In this document: one piece after another, positions 2,607 to 9,396 of the stretch
Numbering within the stretch: the stretch's first letter is position 1
How the letters are laid out: each line of letters begins with the position of its first letter
Assembly (NCBI GenBank): GCA_903843305.1
Contig: CAIMPI010000020.1
Location: forward strand, 1-64,000
DNA from: an uncultured Chlorobiaceae bacterium
Lineage (GTDB): Bacteria; Bacteroidota; Chlorobiia; Chlorobiales; Chlorobiaceae
DNA length: 64,000 nt
Direction: 5' to 3'
Position numbers and translations under genes: made by a program
Notes under the pieces: generated by a model
Told to the model about the DNA's origin: nothing
What the model saw: only the letters and a program-made list of their open reading frames with translations
The model's database searches: none

Positions 2607-3623
2607 CTATCCTTTTACAGCTTCACAGAGAAGGTGATCGTATTTTCTGACGGTTCGTACATTGGTGAATCCGATGGATTCAAGAATTTCCTTGTAGCGA
2701 CTTTGCTGCTTGTAGCCCAGTACTGAAAACGGTAATCCTGCTCCAAGAATGAAGTGGCTCAAATAATCGAAATTTGGCTTTTCTGGATCATCAATAATCA
2801 TGTCGAGAATGAGTACCTTGCCACCAGGCGTAAGAGCATCAAAGGCTTTTGTGCACAGCATAGTGGTCAACTGCTCGTTTGCCGAATAAAGAATCCTGCA
2901 GAACAATACAGCATCTGCTGCAGGGTAGGGCTCTTTATAGATATCGACAGCAGCGCCTCTCAGCCGGTCACCAACTCCTTTTTCGATGGCATTTTCATTG
3001 ACCAGGTCAACAGCGCCGGGCAGGTTCAAGATGGTGGAGTCAAGTTGCGGAAACTTTTTCAGAAGGGCCGCTGAAATATCACCAATGCCTCCCCCAACAT
3101 CCACGAGTGTTCTTGCGTTTGAAAGGTCGGCCTCTTCAAGGAGCAGCAGGATTGCAAAATGTGCATTGCTGCGATGAATTTCTTCAAAATACAAGTTGTC
3201 TTCCCGTGTGACGGGAGGGTAAGGTACCTCAGCTTTAAATGTTACCTTTCCTCTGACGGCATCGGCTATTTTCAGATAGAAATTATCAGAAAGATGTGCC
3301 ATAGCTTGTGTTACAGGAATCATATAAAGATTTGGAAGATCGCTGTTTGGCAGAAACATTGTTTTTGCGAAAGGGGTGAGGCTCCATTTACCACCCTCTT
3401 CTGCAGTAATTCCAATTTGCCGCAAGGCTTCAAGCAGCATGCCCAGTCTTGGAGGAATTGCGCTGACACTGGCAGCAAGCGCGTCTACCTCCATTGCTCC
3501 ATCAGCAAGGCGTGTAAAAAGATCAAGTTCAAAAGCAGCCTTGATACATCCAAACTCCACAAGACCTTTAAACACAAGTTCGTTGGCCCTGTGGTTATGT
3601 TTCAGTAACTCGTTTTCGCTCAT
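2607..3623 (-). CDS. bchU: bacteriochlorophyllide C-20 methyltransferase BchU
   Basis: BchU methylates the C-20 meso position of bacteriochlorophyllide with SAM, turning the BChl d (or f) series into BChl c (or e) and red-shifting chlorosome absorption. The 338-aa protein has an N-terminal winged-helix dimerisation region (about 10-95) and a class I methyltransferase domain with the SAM loop VDVGGGIGD (184-192). Tyr246 (RILYSANE) and His290 (DYLSHFILG) match the catalytic residues described for the C. tepidum enzyme, and PYPPVTREDNLYFEEIHRSNA is conserved. No frameshift is visible, in contrast to the bchU lesions known in BChl d strains. It lies downstream of a radical SAM gene and an ArsA-like gene on the same strand and ends in a hairpin. 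Confidence 0.97.
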   Translation of the reverse strand: MSENELLKHNHRANELVFKGLVEFGCIKAAFELDLFTRLADGAMEVDALAASVSAIPPRLGMLLEALRQIGITAEEGGKWSLTPFAKTMFLPNSDLPNLYMIPVTQAMAHLSDNFYLKIADAVRGKVTFKAEVPYPPVTREDNLYFEEIHRSNAHFAILLLLEEADLSNARTLVDVGGGIGDISAALLKKFPQLDSTILNLPGAVDLVNENAIEKGVGDRLRGAAVDIYKEPYPAADAVLFCRILYSANEQLTTMLCTKAFDALTPGGKVLILDMIIDDPEKPNFDYLSHFILGAGLPFSVLGYKQQSRYKEILESIGFTNVRTVRKYDHLLCEAVKG

Positions 3624-3727: not shown

Positions 3728-5113
3728 TTATCGCCTGATATTATTTTCCTGCTCAAAGGTGCCAAGCTGCTCGCGAAGATTTTTTCTGAATGCCAGACTG
3801 GTGACAAGATTGAGTAATTTGTAAGGATTAACTCTCACCCTGTTAGCAATATTTTTCCACGAGTAGGCCTTGTAATAAGTGGTCATAAATTTATGCTGAA
3901 ACTTCACTGCATCGTATTTGTCTGATCGAATTACAAGATTCATGGCGTTGTATTTTTCCCAGTTTTCATCGGTTATCCACCCTTTACTCTTGTACTCCCA
4001 GTACATTGTCGTTCCGGGATACGGGGTGATAATCTGGAAAATTGGCATGAAAATATTGTTTTTGCTGACAAATTTTACGAGGTCATCCAGATCTTCATAA
4101 CTGTCGAGATCAGGATTTACCAGAAAATTTCCCTGGACATTCAGGCCAGCCTGACGGCACTCCTCAATGAGACGGGAAAACTGGTCGGCTGAATTGACAT
4201 GACCTTTATTGTAAGCTTCAAGAGTGCTCTGTTTTATGGATTCAAATCCGACCAGCACCATAATGCACCCTGCTTCAACGAGCCTTCTTACCGTCTCTTT
4301 GTCTTCCAGAAAATTGATGCTGAAAAAAACGCTGAAGTTGATATTGCACTCTTTAATCAGTTCAAGCGATTCCCATAACTTTTTTTTACTGACACCGAGG
4401 TTCTCATCACAAAGCATGAACCATGGCTTTGATGATTTTCCGTTCGCTTTAAAAAAAACATTTTTGGCAGTTTCAATCTGTTTTTTCAGCTCCTCAGGTT
4501 TCTGTGCTCGATACAGTTTTCCTGTGAAATTCGGGGTAACACAGAATGAACACTCGTACGGGCAGCCTCGGGTAATGTAAAGAGGGATAGACTTTGTACC
4601 ATCGACCTTTTCGCGCTTTGAGGCTTTGGCTATTCTTTCGTAATCAAGAGGAATAATTTCTTTTACAGGAGGAAACTCTTTTGAATCGTAGAGAGGCTTT
4701 AAACGGTTGAGAGCAATGTCCTCAAGAACGGTCATCCACAGGTTTTCTGCTTCACCGCAAACAATGCAGTCAGCATGCACTCTCGCTTCTTCCATATTGA
4801 ACGAGATATGCAGGCCTCCGAGAATTACTTTCTGTCCTTTTTGCCGAAACTTGTCGGCAATTTCATAAGCTCTTGTTGCATCGATTGTTCTTGATGTTAT
4901 GCCGACAACATCGTAATCACCATTGTAATTGACAATATCACCGAAATGTTCATCGATTATCTCAATATGATGCTGTTCCGGAGTAAGGCTTACCAAGACA
5001 CCTATTGCCATGTTAAATAATGGCTTCTGATTTGTCTTGGAATCTTTTTTCCCTTTTGGGGCAATAAGGAGGATTTTGAGTGGCTTTCTTTTTTGAGGTT
5101 CAGGATTGCTCAT
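3728..5113 (-). CDS. B12-binding-domain radical SAM enzyme, probable pigment-tailoring enzyme
   Basis: This is a 461-aa protein. An N-terminal cobalamin-binding-like domain (about 12-140, [11 protein letters not shown] and [12 protein letters not shown]) precedes a radical SAM barrel with CPYECSFC (Cys184, Cys188, Cys191) and a conserved [15 protein letters not shown] segment. It lies between an ArsA-like ATPase gene (55 bp upstream) and bchU (104 bp downstream) on the same strand, which points to (bacterio)chlorophyll side-chain chemistry. Candidates are C-8/C-12 methylation (BchQ/BchR) or C-7 methyl oxidation (BciD, the BChl e marker). Length and architecture do not decide between them here. 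The stretch DEHFG only resembles the DxHxxG cobalamin motif and is one residue too short. Confidence 0.8.
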
Positions 5114-5168: not shown

Positions 5169-6392
5169 TCAGTTAAGAGTCTTGTTGTACTCTTTTTGCA
5201 ATCGACTTTGTTGGTGTTGATTAAGATCAAAAGGAATGTGAAGCCATTTGTCCTTGAAGACAGCATCACCAGGTTCCAGGCCGGTCAGGCTTATCGGAAG
5301 CGTGATGATTTTACGTTGATTGCCGATGTGTACGAACAGCTCATCACCTGTTACCCAAATGTCGATATCAACAGGATTGGCAAACATAAGCTTCAACTGA
5401 ACCTCGTAGACATCCTTGTTCCTTACAAATTTGATCGGGGGTTCGTCATACATCATATCGGACGGGTCAGTGTCACCGTACATGTCTCTGGCAAACTGCT
5501 CAAGCGCCTTGAGACCGACAATCTCCTGCTCGTACATCCGGAGCTTTTTAACCGGAAGTGGAGAGAATCCCTCCTCAATTTCTCCAAGGTATTTCTGCTG
5601 AATAGTTTTCCACTTTTCCAGGTATCCGCTGTCCTCTTTTGTATCAAGCAACCTGTTGACAAGCACCATATCCACCTTGAAGCCATAGAGGTTCAGGTAG
5701 GTCAAAGCCCGCATGGTCTCCTTGATCGACATTTTTTCAGCGTTCATGACGAGTCGAACGGTTGACTTTGCGTTATCGGTCAGTATTTCCCTGATACCAT
5801 CAAGTTCATCAAATACCTGGTCAACCGAATCAAGAGCATCTTCAGGCGGGATATAACTTGCTATCCTGTCAGACATTTTTGACAGAGGCTTGCTCAGAGG
5901 CCTGACAATATATTTGGTGACATTTTTGACGGCTTTCATGCCCCATGCGAGAGTATCGGGAAGAGAGAGGAGCCTCAGTGTTTCACCGGTAGGGGCAGTA
6001 TCAAGCACAAGGACATCATAACGTCCGGATGCTTTATAGCGTTTTATCCTCAATAGTGAAAACAGCTCTTCCATACCGGGCAAAATGGTCATTTCATCAG
6101 CCACAACTCCTGAAACGCCCTGGGCCATGAAAATTCTTGAATAAAATTTCTGGACGGACTGCCAGTTTTCTTTGAGGTCAACATAGGGATTTACCTCGAT
6201 GGCATGAAGATTCTCCTTGATTTTTGTAGGTTCGGGGCCAAGAGGCAGGTTAAACGAATCCGATAAGCTATGTGCTGGATCGGTTGAAAGAACAAGTGTA
6301 CGATAGCCCAGCTCCGACAAGCGGACAGCCGTTGCTGCTGAAACACTGGTTTTTCCTACCCCGCCTTTACCTGTAAACGTTAAAATACGCAT
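5169..6392 (-). CDS. ArsA/GET3-family ATPase with C-terminal HSP20-like domain
   Basis: This is a 407-aa P-loop ATPase of the anion-transporting/tail-anchored-protein-targeting family. The deviant Walker A is GKGGVGKTS (residues 8-16), the LSTDPAHSLSD switch follows, and LDTAPTGETLRLL is the A-loop region. The last 80 residues (YEVQLKLMFANPVDIDIWV to the end) look like the ArsA_HSP20 beta-sandwich seen in GSB and related homologues. No arsB or arsR is nearby, so arsenite export is unlikely; a role in membrane or chlorosome protein handling is possible but inferred. It is the first gene of the leftward pigment block and is divergent from the small-protein cluster. Confidence 0.88.
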   Translation of the reverse strand: MRILTFTGKGGVGKTSVSAATAVRLSELGYRTLVLSTDPAHSLSDSFNLPLGPEPTKIKENLHAIEVNPYVDLKENWQSVQKFYSRIFMAQGVSGVVADEMTILPGMEELFSLLRIKRYKASGRYDVLVLDTAPTGETLRLLSLPDTLAWGMKAVKNVTKYIVRPLSKPLSKMSDRIASYIPPEDALDSVDQVFDELDGIREILTDNAKSTVRLVMNAEKMSIKETMRALTYLNLYGFKVDMVLVNRLLDTKEDSGYLEKWKTIQQKYLGEIEEGFSPLPVKKLRMYEQEIVGLKALEQFARDMYGDTDPSDMMYDEPPIKFVRNKDVYEVQLKLMFANPVDIDIWVTGDELFVHIGNQRKIITLPISLTGLEPGDAVFKDKWLHIPFDLNQHQQSRLQKEYNKTLN

Positions 6393-6741: not shown

Positions 6742-6951
6742 ATGATAAAAGAAGTTGGAGGTTTGGCTGGTGGCGCCTTGATATTTTCCCCTATTGGTAT
6801 GCCATTCTTGCTTCACGGCGTTGCAGGTGTTATTGTTGGTGGTGCAGGGCTTTTTGTTGCTGATGCTGTCTTGAAGCAAGTGGTGGATACAGCAAGTAAC
6901 CTTGTGTCGCAAGCCGGGTCAAAAGAATCAGGAGAACAAGACGTCCAGTAA
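6742..6951 (+). CDS. small glycine-rich two-helix protein, paralogue of the protein at 8436-8684
   Basis: This is a 69-aa protein. The ATG at 6742 is preferred over the upstream in-frame start at 6637 because TGGAG sits 4 nt upstream and homology to the second copy begins here. The core has GGALIFSPIGMPFLLHG, then IVGGAGLFVADAVL, then an amphipathic tail KQVVDTASNLVSQ: two short glycine-rich hydrophobic helices joined by SPxGxPF and a charged C-terminus. A gapless comparison with the 8436 product gives 20 identities in 48 positions. The family is not recognised. A chlorosome-envelope or membrane role is only suggested by its neighbours. Confidence 0.65.
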   Translation: MIKEVGGLAGGALIFSPIGMPFLLHGVAGVIVGGAGLFVADAVLKQVVDTASNLVSQAGSKESGEQDVQ

Positions 6952-7002: not shown

Positions 7003-7626
7003 ATGAAGGCTGTTATTTTATACGACAGTAGAACGTCAAACGGTTCTACAGAAGCTATTATTGATTCCATTGGGTTGAGTCTTGCAGAATCTGGCTTTTA
7101 TGTGGAAAAAGCAAAATGCAAAGCAACGGCAGACTACAGTTTTGTCAGGGATTTTGATCTGGTTGTCTTGGGCGCACCTGTTTACTATTTTATAGTGGCA
7201 TCACAGCTTTTAGGCGCGTTGATCCAGGGCAATCTGAAAAAATGCCTCAATAGAAAAAAAATAGCCCTTTTTCTGACCTGTGGAAGCTCTGAGTCCATGG
7301 GAGCCTTACTGTATATGCCGCAGTTAAAAGTACATTTGATGCGCAATAAAATTCTTGCCGAAAAGATTTTAGCAGTCGATGCACTTGCTGATGGTTCTGT
7401 CGACTCGTTTGTAGAAGAGCTTTTGCTTCAGTACAACAAACCCCCGAAATCCAGAGAACTTTCTGCTAAATGGACGGTTGAAGCACAGGAGTGGTTTCAT
7501 TCAATGCCCTCTTTTATGCAGGGGAAGTTCAGAGCCATGGCTGAGGAGTATGCTGAGGAGATGGGCTATAAGGAGATCACCCTTGAAGTGCTAATGGAAG
7601 CAAGGGATAATCTGGGCGGCACCTAA
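7003..7626 (+). CDS. flavodoxin-like domain fused to a PCP_red (BchB C-terminal-like) domain
   Basis: This is a 207-aa protein. Residues 1-145 form a flavodoxin-like fold: the strand KAVILYD, an FMN phosphate loop SRTSNGSTEAI, the 50s-loop region VVLGAPVYYF, and ALFLTCGSSESMGA. Residues 156-207 match the small C-terminal domain of the dark-operative protochlorophyllide reductase subunit BchB/ChlB (PCP_red): W..EA....HSMPSFMQGKFR...EEYA.EMG...IT.EVL.EA...LGG. The combination suggests a flavin electron carrier or reductase acting near (bacterio)chlorophyllides or docking to pigment enzymes; this is inference. It is 51 bp downstream of a small glycine-rich gene and ends at a terminator. The catalytic parts of BchB are absent. 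Confidence 0.85.
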   Translation: MKAVILYDSRTSNGSTEAIIDSIGLSLAESGFYVEKAKCKATADYSFVRDFDLVVLGAPVYYFIVASQLLGALIQGNLKKCLNRKKIALFLTCGSSESMGALLYMPQLKVHLMRNKILAEKILAVDALADGSVDSFVEELLLQYNKPPKSRELSAKWTVEAQEWFHSMPSFMQGKFRAMAEEYAEEMGYKEITLEVLMEARDNLGGT

Positions 7627-7659: not shown

Positions 7660-7688
7660 CCGGTTGAATACTCAACTGGCTTTTTTAG
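7660..7688 (+). terminator. intrinsic terminator after the flavodoxin-PCP_red gene
   Basis: The stem CCGGTTGA / TCAACTGG (8 bp with one G-T pair) around an ATAC loop is followed by CTTTTTTAG. It sits 33 bp after the stop codon. The 3' end of a possible small antisense-strand gene (7672-7794) overlaps it. Confidence 0.75.
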
Positions 7689-8011: not shown

Positions 8012-8380
8012 ATGGCAAAAGATCAAAAAAAAGGTGGCTTTTTTTCTGCATTCAGAGATCGTGAAGTTGTCGGTAATGGCGGAACTTTGTCTCAGTCTCA
8101 AACTCCATCCACAGCGCCTGCGCCAACCCGCCCAGTGACGCCAGAAGTCAGGGTCTCTTCCGCAAGTACCGGTCAGGTTAATCCAACACCTTTCCAGACG
8201 CAGGTTAAAGCTGCCTTACCGTCAGAACCGGCGGTTATTGATACCGTTGAATCCTTCAAGATGCTTTGCCAGTCACTGGCTGATATTGGTGAGTCGCAAT
8301 TGAAGGTTGCTGAGATGCTGCTGAGCATGATTTCTAACTCACTCAATAAGATAGCCGGAGGATCGACGCCAGTAAAATAG
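8012..8380 (+). CDS. probable chlorosome envelope protein (CsmC/CsmD-like)
   Basis: This is a 122-aa protein with three parts: a basic/aromatic N-terminus (KGGFFSAFRDRE), a low-complexity Ser/Thr/Pro/Gln linker (about 25-75), and a C-terminal amphipathic helix region (VIDTVESFKMLCQSLADIG, then KVAEMLLSMISNSLNKIAG). Chlorosome envelope proteins are small, with amphipathic helices that sit on the lipid monolayer, and this product looks like the CsmC/CsmD group. Assignment is from general resemblance and context, not a diagnostic motif. It is 55 bp upstream of a glycine-rich small gene and close to bchU. A plain hypothetical protein is the alternative. Confidence 0.5.
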   Translation: MAKDQKKGGFFSAFRDREVVGNGGTLSQSQTPSTAPAPTRPVTPEVRVSSASTGQVNPTPFQTQVKAALPSEPAVIDTVESFKMLCQSLADIGESQLKVAEMLLSMISNSLNKIAGGSTPVK

Positions 8381-8435: not shown

Positions 8436-8684
8436 GTGTTTGGTAATCAAAAAGGTATATCACCGGAGGGTCTGGTCGGGCCAGCCGCAACAATTGCTGG
8501 CGGAGCATTTCTCATGTCGCCCCTCGGTATTCCGTTTTTTGTTCGCGGATTACCCCGAGTACTTCTTGCAGGGATCGGCGGGTTTGTTGCAGGAAAGGTA
8601 GCCGACACCGTTGTTGAAAATCTGGGAAACATTATTTCATCACAAAAGCCTGAAGAGAATGGTCAATGGACAGATGAGCATTAA
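8436..8684 (+). CDS. small glycine-rich two-helix protein, second paralogue
   Basis: This is an 82-aa protein starting at GTG 8436, fixed by a strong Shine-Dalgarno CGGAGG at 8425-8430. The core GGAFLMSPLGIPFFVRG...GIGGFVAGKVADTVVENL aligns without gaps to the 6742 product (20 of 48 identical, sharing the SPxGxPF turn and the FVA segment). Two glycine-zipper-like hydrophobic helices and a polar acidic tail suggest a membrane or lipid-monolayer protein. The family and function are not recognised. It probably shares a transcript with the chlorosome-like gene upstream. Confidence 0.7.
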   Translation: MFGNQKGISPEGLVGPAATIAGGAFLMSPLGIPFFVRGLPRVLLAGIGGFVAGKVADTVVENLGNIISSQKPEENGQWTDEH

Positions 8685-8766: not shown

Positions 8767-9396
8767 ATGCAAGTCGTTGGCAAAAGCAAAGCGCATATCG
8801 TTCTTGACTCATGTTTTCATGAATCAGGTATCTATTTCGCAGATCATGAAAAGTTGATCATGTGTAATCCTTATTGCAGTAACGTTAAATATTTGAAGGA
8901 TCTTGATATTTTCCAGTGGATTTTTCAGGTTGCTGATCCCAGAAGCAATCCGATTATTGCGGTTTTTTTTGTCCGCCAGCACGAAGAGAATTTTTTGCTT
9001 GACGACAGTTATGGCAAGGCGTTTGCCGAAGCCCGCGTTAAAAATAGAGCCCCCTATAATGGTAAAGGAAAACGGATTCGCTGGGAAGCTGTTCATGATC
9101 ATCCTGAATTTGAAAAAACCTCTCCCAATACTTTTCTCGGGAAAGCCAGTTCCGAGATCTGCCTGCTCCATCAACATGATGACAAGACTTCTGTTTACTT
9201 CGACACCGATATCTGTCTTGATTTCGAGATTTCTTTTCCCCTGAGCCTCATGCCTGAAGGTATACTCAAGTTTATGTCAGAAACGATCATGTCACAGATC
9301 ATGCAGCAGGCAACGGAAAGCATGCTGTGCAAGGTACAGTCAGATATCTGCTGTACAGTTCCTGAATTTGCTGTAGAGGGAGGAGGACGAAAATAA
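8767..9396 (+). CDS. DUF1997/SRPBCC-like protein of unknown function
   Basis: This is a 209-aa soluble protein. Alternating strands (IYFADHEKLIMCNPY, FQWIFQVADPRSNPI) and a long C-terminal helix (GILKFMSETIMSQIMQQATESML) suggest a START/SRPBCC helix-grip fold, such as the DUF1997 family found in photosynthetic bacteria and plants. The family call is tentative. SRPBCC proteins bind hydrophobic ligands, so a pigment or lipid ligand is conceivable here, but nothing proves it. It ends in a Gly/Lys tail 22 bp before the MBL-fold gene. Confidence 0.6.
   Translation: MQVVGKSKAHIVLDSCFHESGIYFADHEKLIMCNPYCSNVKYLKDLDIFQWIFQVADPRSNPIIAVFFVRQHEENFLLDDSYGKAFAEARVKNRAPYNGKGKRIRWEAVHDHPEFEKTSPNTFLGKASSEICLLHQHDDKTSVYFDTDICLDFEISFPLSLMPEGILKFMSETIMSQIMQQATESMLCKVQSDICCTVPEFAVEGGGRK

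Follow-up and report, generated by a model that had tools for sequence, protein, structure and literature searches.

A flavodoxin-PCP_red fusion protein of Chlorobiaceae and its possible role as an accessory electron carrier of bacteriochlorophyll synthesis

The gene at positions 7003..7626 (+ strand) of the window, the whole 64,000-nucleotide stretch of Chlorobiaceae DNA analysed here, encodes a protein of 207 aa, followed by a stop codon, in which a flavodoxin-like domain is joined to PCP_red (PF08369), the module that ends BchB/ChlB. The gene is supported by its open reading frame, by Pfam, NCBIfam, AlphaFold2 and Foldseek results, and by purifying selection. The two-domain fusion is real and lies far beyond chance, with 71 distinct homologue tails and dN/dS values of about 0.02-0.3 in both halves. 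The literature search found no paper joining PCP_red and a flavodoxin, in agreement with the initial annotation, which knew of no characterised protein of such design.

We tentatively read the product, with a probability of roughly 0.38, as an accessory electron carrier that would bind FMN and whose acidic tail would act as an adaptor, probably in the service of Fe-S or radical-SAM enzymes of the bacteriochlorophyll (BChl) pathway. In green sulfur bacteria, the electron donors that physiologically serve the anaerobic chlorophyll enzymes DPOR, BchE, BciD and BchQ/R have been poorly established, and in a recent paper DPOR is still described as reduced "most likely by a ferredoxin or similar" (PMC12518044). 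For that role the fusion, a conserved flavodoxin equipped with PCP_red, offers a tangible candidate encoded by a single gene.

Domains, fold and flavin loops

Both domains proposed by the initial annotation were recovered by profile searches. The flavodoxin-like domain (residues 1-145; 7003..7437, + strand) has the Flavodoxin_5/short-chain fold and matches PF12724 at residues 5-97 (29.1 bits against a cut-off of 27, E 1.4e-6). PCP_red occupies residues 157-201 (7471..7605, + strand), within the 51 residues that end the protein, and is matched over the full domain (1-45 of 45; 52.9 bits against a cut-off of 32.5, E 3.8e-14); also, residues 146-206 match the last 61 positions of the NCBIfam BchB model (E 2.7e-12). 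With phmmer, matches were obtained to the Desulfovibrio vulgaris flavodoxin and to the NMR structure 2kru, the PCP_red domain of C. tepidum BchB, which is the nearest solved structure for the tail. The AlphaFold2 model, built with 24 homologues (pLDDT 84.8, pTM 0.69), predicts an alpha/beta fold of flavodoxin type with three helices after it, and the best full-domain Foldseek matches are Desulfovibrio short-chain flavodoxins, including that of D. vulgaris (TM up to 0.79 on the target), placing the protein in the flavodoxin superfamily. The flavodoxin equivalog TIGR01753 gave only 18 bits (cut-off 123).

Sequence conservation points to a putative FMN-phosphate loop, DSRTSNGSTE (residues 8-17; 7024..7053, + strand), in which D8, G14 and T16 are invariant among fusions. 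By eye, this loop seems about two residues longer than that of D. vulgaris. The flavin-loop residues G57-A/P59-Y61-(Y62) and C93-G94 are kept in both tailed and untailed forms of the protein.

The rest of BchB is absent, as had been claimed: no match to the Oxidored_nitro catalytic domain (PF00148) was found in the fusion protein by Pfam. A degenerate bchB fragment is ruled out, since the same genome carries a complete bchB, tail included, at another place (G000:C16:83686-85287) and the fusion is family-wide and under selection.

As Flavodoxin_5 is its best Pfam flavodoxin family and no HemJ occurs in the genome, the protein might be thought a protoporphyrinogen dehydrogenase of the HemG type, a member of the flavodoxin family that would supply the pathway. 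This is very improbable. The HemG model NF008316 scores 22.3 bits against a cut-off of 142 and aligns over positions 1-85 of its 177, the domain has the length (about 145 aa against 177 in the model) and the fold of a short-chain flavodoxin, and the genome encodes a HemY-like protein (86.5 bits, just below the 97.85 cut-off). HemG identity was rejected on the weak match to the N-terminal half of the model and on the HemY-like protein.

A remodelled and selected tail

The tails of 71 fusions were compared with BchB/ChlB tails, 34 taken from the loci and three from solved structures. Positions common to both sets are those of the fold: W4, A8, P16, F19, A32, G36, I40, T41, A48 and the GG pair. 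In contrast, the stretch F-F-V-R-x-K-x-R/K-x-N-T-E, near-invariant in BchB of Chlorobi, purple bacteria and cyanobacteria, is lost from the fusion tails. At positions that are 94-100% invariant in BchB tails, fusions have Q, S or R at R21 (54, 15 and 14%), M, A or G at N27 (42, 30 and 12%) and A, L or T at T28 (57, 25 and 9%), while K23 is K or R in most of them; the VR-K--N-T signature of BchB/ChlB (positions 20, 21, 23, 27 and 28) is thus not retained. Net charge over 50 residues is also reversed, being -5.4 +/- 2.1 in fusion tails versus +2.8 +/- 0.8 in BchB tails. Because the fusion separates the residues of the fold, which are kept, from those specific to BchB, which are lost, it raises the question of the role of PCP_red within BchB itself.

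These comparisons bear on the model of the initial annotation, in which the tail is a pigment-reductase docking domain that binds BchNB (or chlorophyllide reductase) at the site of the BchB C-terminus, making the protein a redox partner or competitive regulator of DPOR. The tail does align end to end with the C-terminus of BchB, linker included, and every fusion carrier possesses bchB where bchB is readable. However, with the BchB motif lost and the charge inverted, the tail is not a simple mimic of BchB docking, and it is unlikely, judging from the residues, that the fused domain uses the motif positions in the mode of BchB. In addition, the fusion is dispensable in C. phaeovibrioides (see below), and electrons reach DPOR via BchL rather than directly into BchNB. 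The missing BchB-specific residues and the supply of DPOR by way of BchL lead us to regard docking of this kind as improbable; the broader notion of a redox partner or regulator of (bacterio)chlorophyll reduction is partly supported. Acidic surfaces are usual in electron carriers, making it plausible that the tail serves as an adaptor to a basic partner.

Both halves of the gene are under purifying selection. In all pairs tested, dN/dS was about 0.02-0.13 for the flavodoxin half and 0.02-0.32 for the tail, the latter often being the lower of the two, and the core residues of the tail are invariant in 24 diverse fusions. These values speak against a functionless tail left over neutrally from a gene fusion, an explanation that we find scarcely credible, even though the C. 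phaeovibrioides clade manages with untailed paralogues and the fusions have swapped two tail types among flavodoxin bodies that are almost the same. This exchange was seen at loci L012-L020, where it amounts to modular replacement of the tail within one gene: L017 and L016 agree at 90% in the flavodoxin half but at 54% in the tail, whereas L013 and L017 agree at 77% and 92%, respectively.

PCP_red is not a pigment-only domain, and the implication of pigment reduction that the initial annotation drew from it does not follow. Relatives without a BchB hit (loci L064-L068, e.g. L067:3597-8664) contain a PCP_red-rich operon beside c-type cytochrome genes, in which the domain is carried by a radical-SAM/SPASM protein, a double-Usp protein with a rubredoxin-like motif (three copies) and a protein of ~160 aa, and which also includes a Mrp/ApbC-type ATPase. 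No description of such a PCP_red-rich rSAM/Usp system was found. The PCP_red domains of this cluster keep, in 87% of cases, the R at the position lost in fusions.

Distribution and genomic context

A full-length fusion occurs in 79 of the 86 Chlorobiaceae genomes and in 61 of the 65 of good quality (>=90% complete, <=5% contaminated), all 65 of which hold at least one tailed or untailed copy. The good-quality genomes without an intact fusion are three members of one clade (G028, G098 and G185) and G241, which retains a remnant. G028, taken as C. phaeovibrioides BrKhr17, has bchB, and this strain is reported to make BChl e (PMC6639628), which argues against any essential role of the fusion. A BChl e-specific gene is likewise ruled out, given that a BciD homologue is found in 9 of the 86 genomes versus 79 for the fusion and that the brown strain BrKhr17 lacks the fusion. 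BciD was assigned by position beside a bchF gene, by presence in those 9 genomes at 88-100% identity and from the published BChl e gene cluster (PMC3613366, PMC6639628).

The same two-domain protein was found only in phototrophic Chlorobiaceae, and none was seen outside this family in the genomes searched. Chlorobiales beyond the family, including Thermochlorobacteraceae, have the untailed flavodoxin only, no other flavodoxin fusion was detected in a 296-genome sample of the phylum, and a plasmid collection searched beyond Chlorobiota yielded no fusion. A scan of 84,980 species by two short peptide patterns, which distant fusions elsewhere could escape, returned 87 relatives, and the 80 listed are all Chlorobiales. 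No PCP_red remnant was recognisable behind the untailed paralogues in four sequences, though the alignments ran through stops. Since the whole family is phototrophic, distribution cannot separate pigment synthesis from other Chlorobiaceae traits.

The genome search gave no BchB PCP_red hit in G052, G102, G169 and G229. In the first three, only part of bchB can be read, within giant open frames of 3500-3970 aa that we take for masked N runs and not for a sign of gene loss, while the G229 assembly is fragmented; the idea that the fusion supplies a missing BchB tail in trans was accordingly dropped.

In the window, bchU, the gene for the bacteriochlorophyllide d C-20 methyltransferase (2607..3623, - strand; TIGR02716, 485 bits with the cut-off at 276), lies 3.4 kb from the fusion as initially noted. 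Between them are, by profile matches, a B12-binding radical SAM gene (rSAM2; 3728..5113, - strand) and the divergent neighbour of the fusion, an ArsA/GET3-type ATPase gene (5169..6392, - strand). Two B12-binding radical-SAM genes (668-2494 and 3728-5113) flank bchU; they resemble BchE/HpnJ only distantly and carry no assigned role in pigment synthesis. A small glycine-rich hydrophobic ORF (6742..6951, + strand) lies 52 bp upstream of the fusion gene, and a terminator-like hairpin followed by a T run, recognised by consensus match, comes directly after the gene (7660..7679, + strand). Further downstream are a 122-aa ORF without family (8012..8380, + strand), a second small ORF (8436-8684) and a DUF1997-like gene scoring below the cut-off (8767..9396, + strand). 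The two small glycine-rich hydrophobic ORFs around the fusion are related to each other and have no Pfam family; in particular, no Pfam chlorosome family matches them, and the description of the flanking genes as chlorosome-like was not borne out.

Context was surveyed at 68 fusion loci, 43 of them away from the gap (GAPDH) gene; some loci are incomplete and all neighbour counts are lower bounds. The gap/dnaJ site, in the order GAPDH-[untailed paralogue]-[fusion]-dnaJ, holds 25 of the 68 and is away from pigment genes. A tree built on the flavodoxin half gathers the copies from all other sites into one clade (support 100/97). These relocated fusions sit between amgK and DUF1997, the latter being their commonest neighbour (37/43), and are accompanied by the 122-aa ORF at 30 of the 43 loci and by rSAM2 nearby at 18. 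bchU lies within about 8 kb at 9 of the 68 loci and was not seen at 34 of the 43 non-gap loci, some of them incomplete, so that its proximity is not telling by itself, contrary to the weight first placed on it.

From one Chlorobium genome to another, the amgK-DUF1997 slot (L142/L074, L119/L229) varies in content, gathering bchU, ArsA, rSAM2 and the BChl e genes bchF3-bciD. It is empty, with about 0.9 kb between the genes, in C. luteolum-type genomes (L226-L228); elsewhere the fusion occupies it by itself or together with bchU, ArsA and rSAM2 and, in brown species, bchF3-bciD. Genome G060, taken as C. luteolum CIII, has a native gap-locus copy that hardly differs from the one in G071. In the slot that is empty in its relatives, it has a second, foreign-type fusion of the relocated clade adjoining rSAM2-bchF3-bciD, as though the gene had been transferred along with the BChl e cluster. 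At the amgK-DUF1997 site of G241 and G316, the fusion is cut to its last 41 residues (L230:5400-6400, L234:10300-11700). These remnants adjoin a putative Tn3-type transposase fragment near bchU and bciD, as in transposon-mediated loss at a pigment site.

Much of this context would suit a general Chlorobiaceae flavodoxin of central metabolism, low iron or stress, with PCP_red as a generic binding module and proximity to pigment genes reflecting a shared insertion hot spot. The ancestral home beside gap and dnaJ, the untailed paralogue across Chlorobiales, the use of PCP_red by BchB-less relatives in Usp and radical-SAM proteins, the lost BchB motif and the scarcity of bchU at non-gap loci all favour it, whereas the confinement of the fusion to Chlorobiaceae among the genomes searched and the second C. 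luteolum CIII copy beside bchF3/bciD do not. We consider such a general role a real possibility, somewhat short of even odds; it is the main rival to the reading that we prefer and almost as probable.

Proposed role and comparison with known systems

The fusion architecture in Chlorobiaceae is ancient and selected. In the reading that we prefer, the gene would encode a small FMN electron carrier of short-chain flavodoxin fold. The three-helix PCP_red module may have been captured in the Chlorobiaceae ancestor and later remodelled to an acidic surface, and the tail would be an adaptor, guiding the carrier to the enzyme or complex that it serves. The likeliest clients would be oxygen-sensitive Fe-S enzymes of bacteriochlorophyll synthesis, with radical-SAM/B12 tetrapyrrole-modifying enzymes slightly favoured over DPOR. 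A link to pigments is favoured by the genomic slot that part of the family shares with pigment genes; against it stand the 25 loci away from such genes and the lack of an intact fusion in C. phaeovibrioides, G098, G185 and G241. The protein would be an accessory, partly redundant donor alongside ferredoxins and not an obligate one. The donors of DPOR and BchE in other organisms are ferredoxins (PMC7242693, PMC13142503), which fits this redundancy. A stronger version, in which the fusion is the family-wide dedicated flavodoxin donor of BChl synthesis, its charge-inverted tail selecting a radical-SAM/B12 enzyme or DPOR/COR, and has moved between species with the BChl e cluster, appears doubtful.

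The closest structural relatives of the body are the D. vulgaris-type short-chain flavodoxins (Flavodoxin_5/Flavodoxin_3), with which it shares fold, element order, an FMN-phosphate-type loop and an aromatic 60s loop; it differs from them in a distinct 90s loop (CGSPE) and in the C-terminal PCP_red domain, and from the curated flavodoxin equivalog in lacking a strong match. HemG/PgdH1, the menaquinone-dependent protoporphyrinogen dehydrogenase, belongs to the same Flavodoxin_5 family and acts in the tetrapyrrole pathway, yet the fusion is only weakly similar to it at the N-terminus and is shorter, and a HemY-like protein is present instead. With the PCP_red of BchB/ChlB (PF08369; 2kru), the tail has in common the three-helix module and the W, A, P, F, A, G, I-T, A and terminal GG residues. 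It lacks FFVRxKxRxNT, however, is acidic instead of basic, and is borne by a flavodoxin and not by a nitrogenase-like subunit. Proteins with PCP_red alone or in other fusions, namely the Nostoc protein Asr4154 (2l09) and those of the rSAM/Usp cluster, likewise use the domain away from DPOR, but no flavodoxin is involved there. In design, a parallel to the proposed role is the C-type ferredoxin FdC2/VirK, whose C-terminal extension is reserved for a single step of chlorophyll synthesis (PMC8408499). Both would be electron carriers extended at the C-terminus, although FdC2/VirK is a 2Fe-2S ferredoxin of oxygenic phototrophs, its extension is unrelated and its client is the aerobic cyclase.
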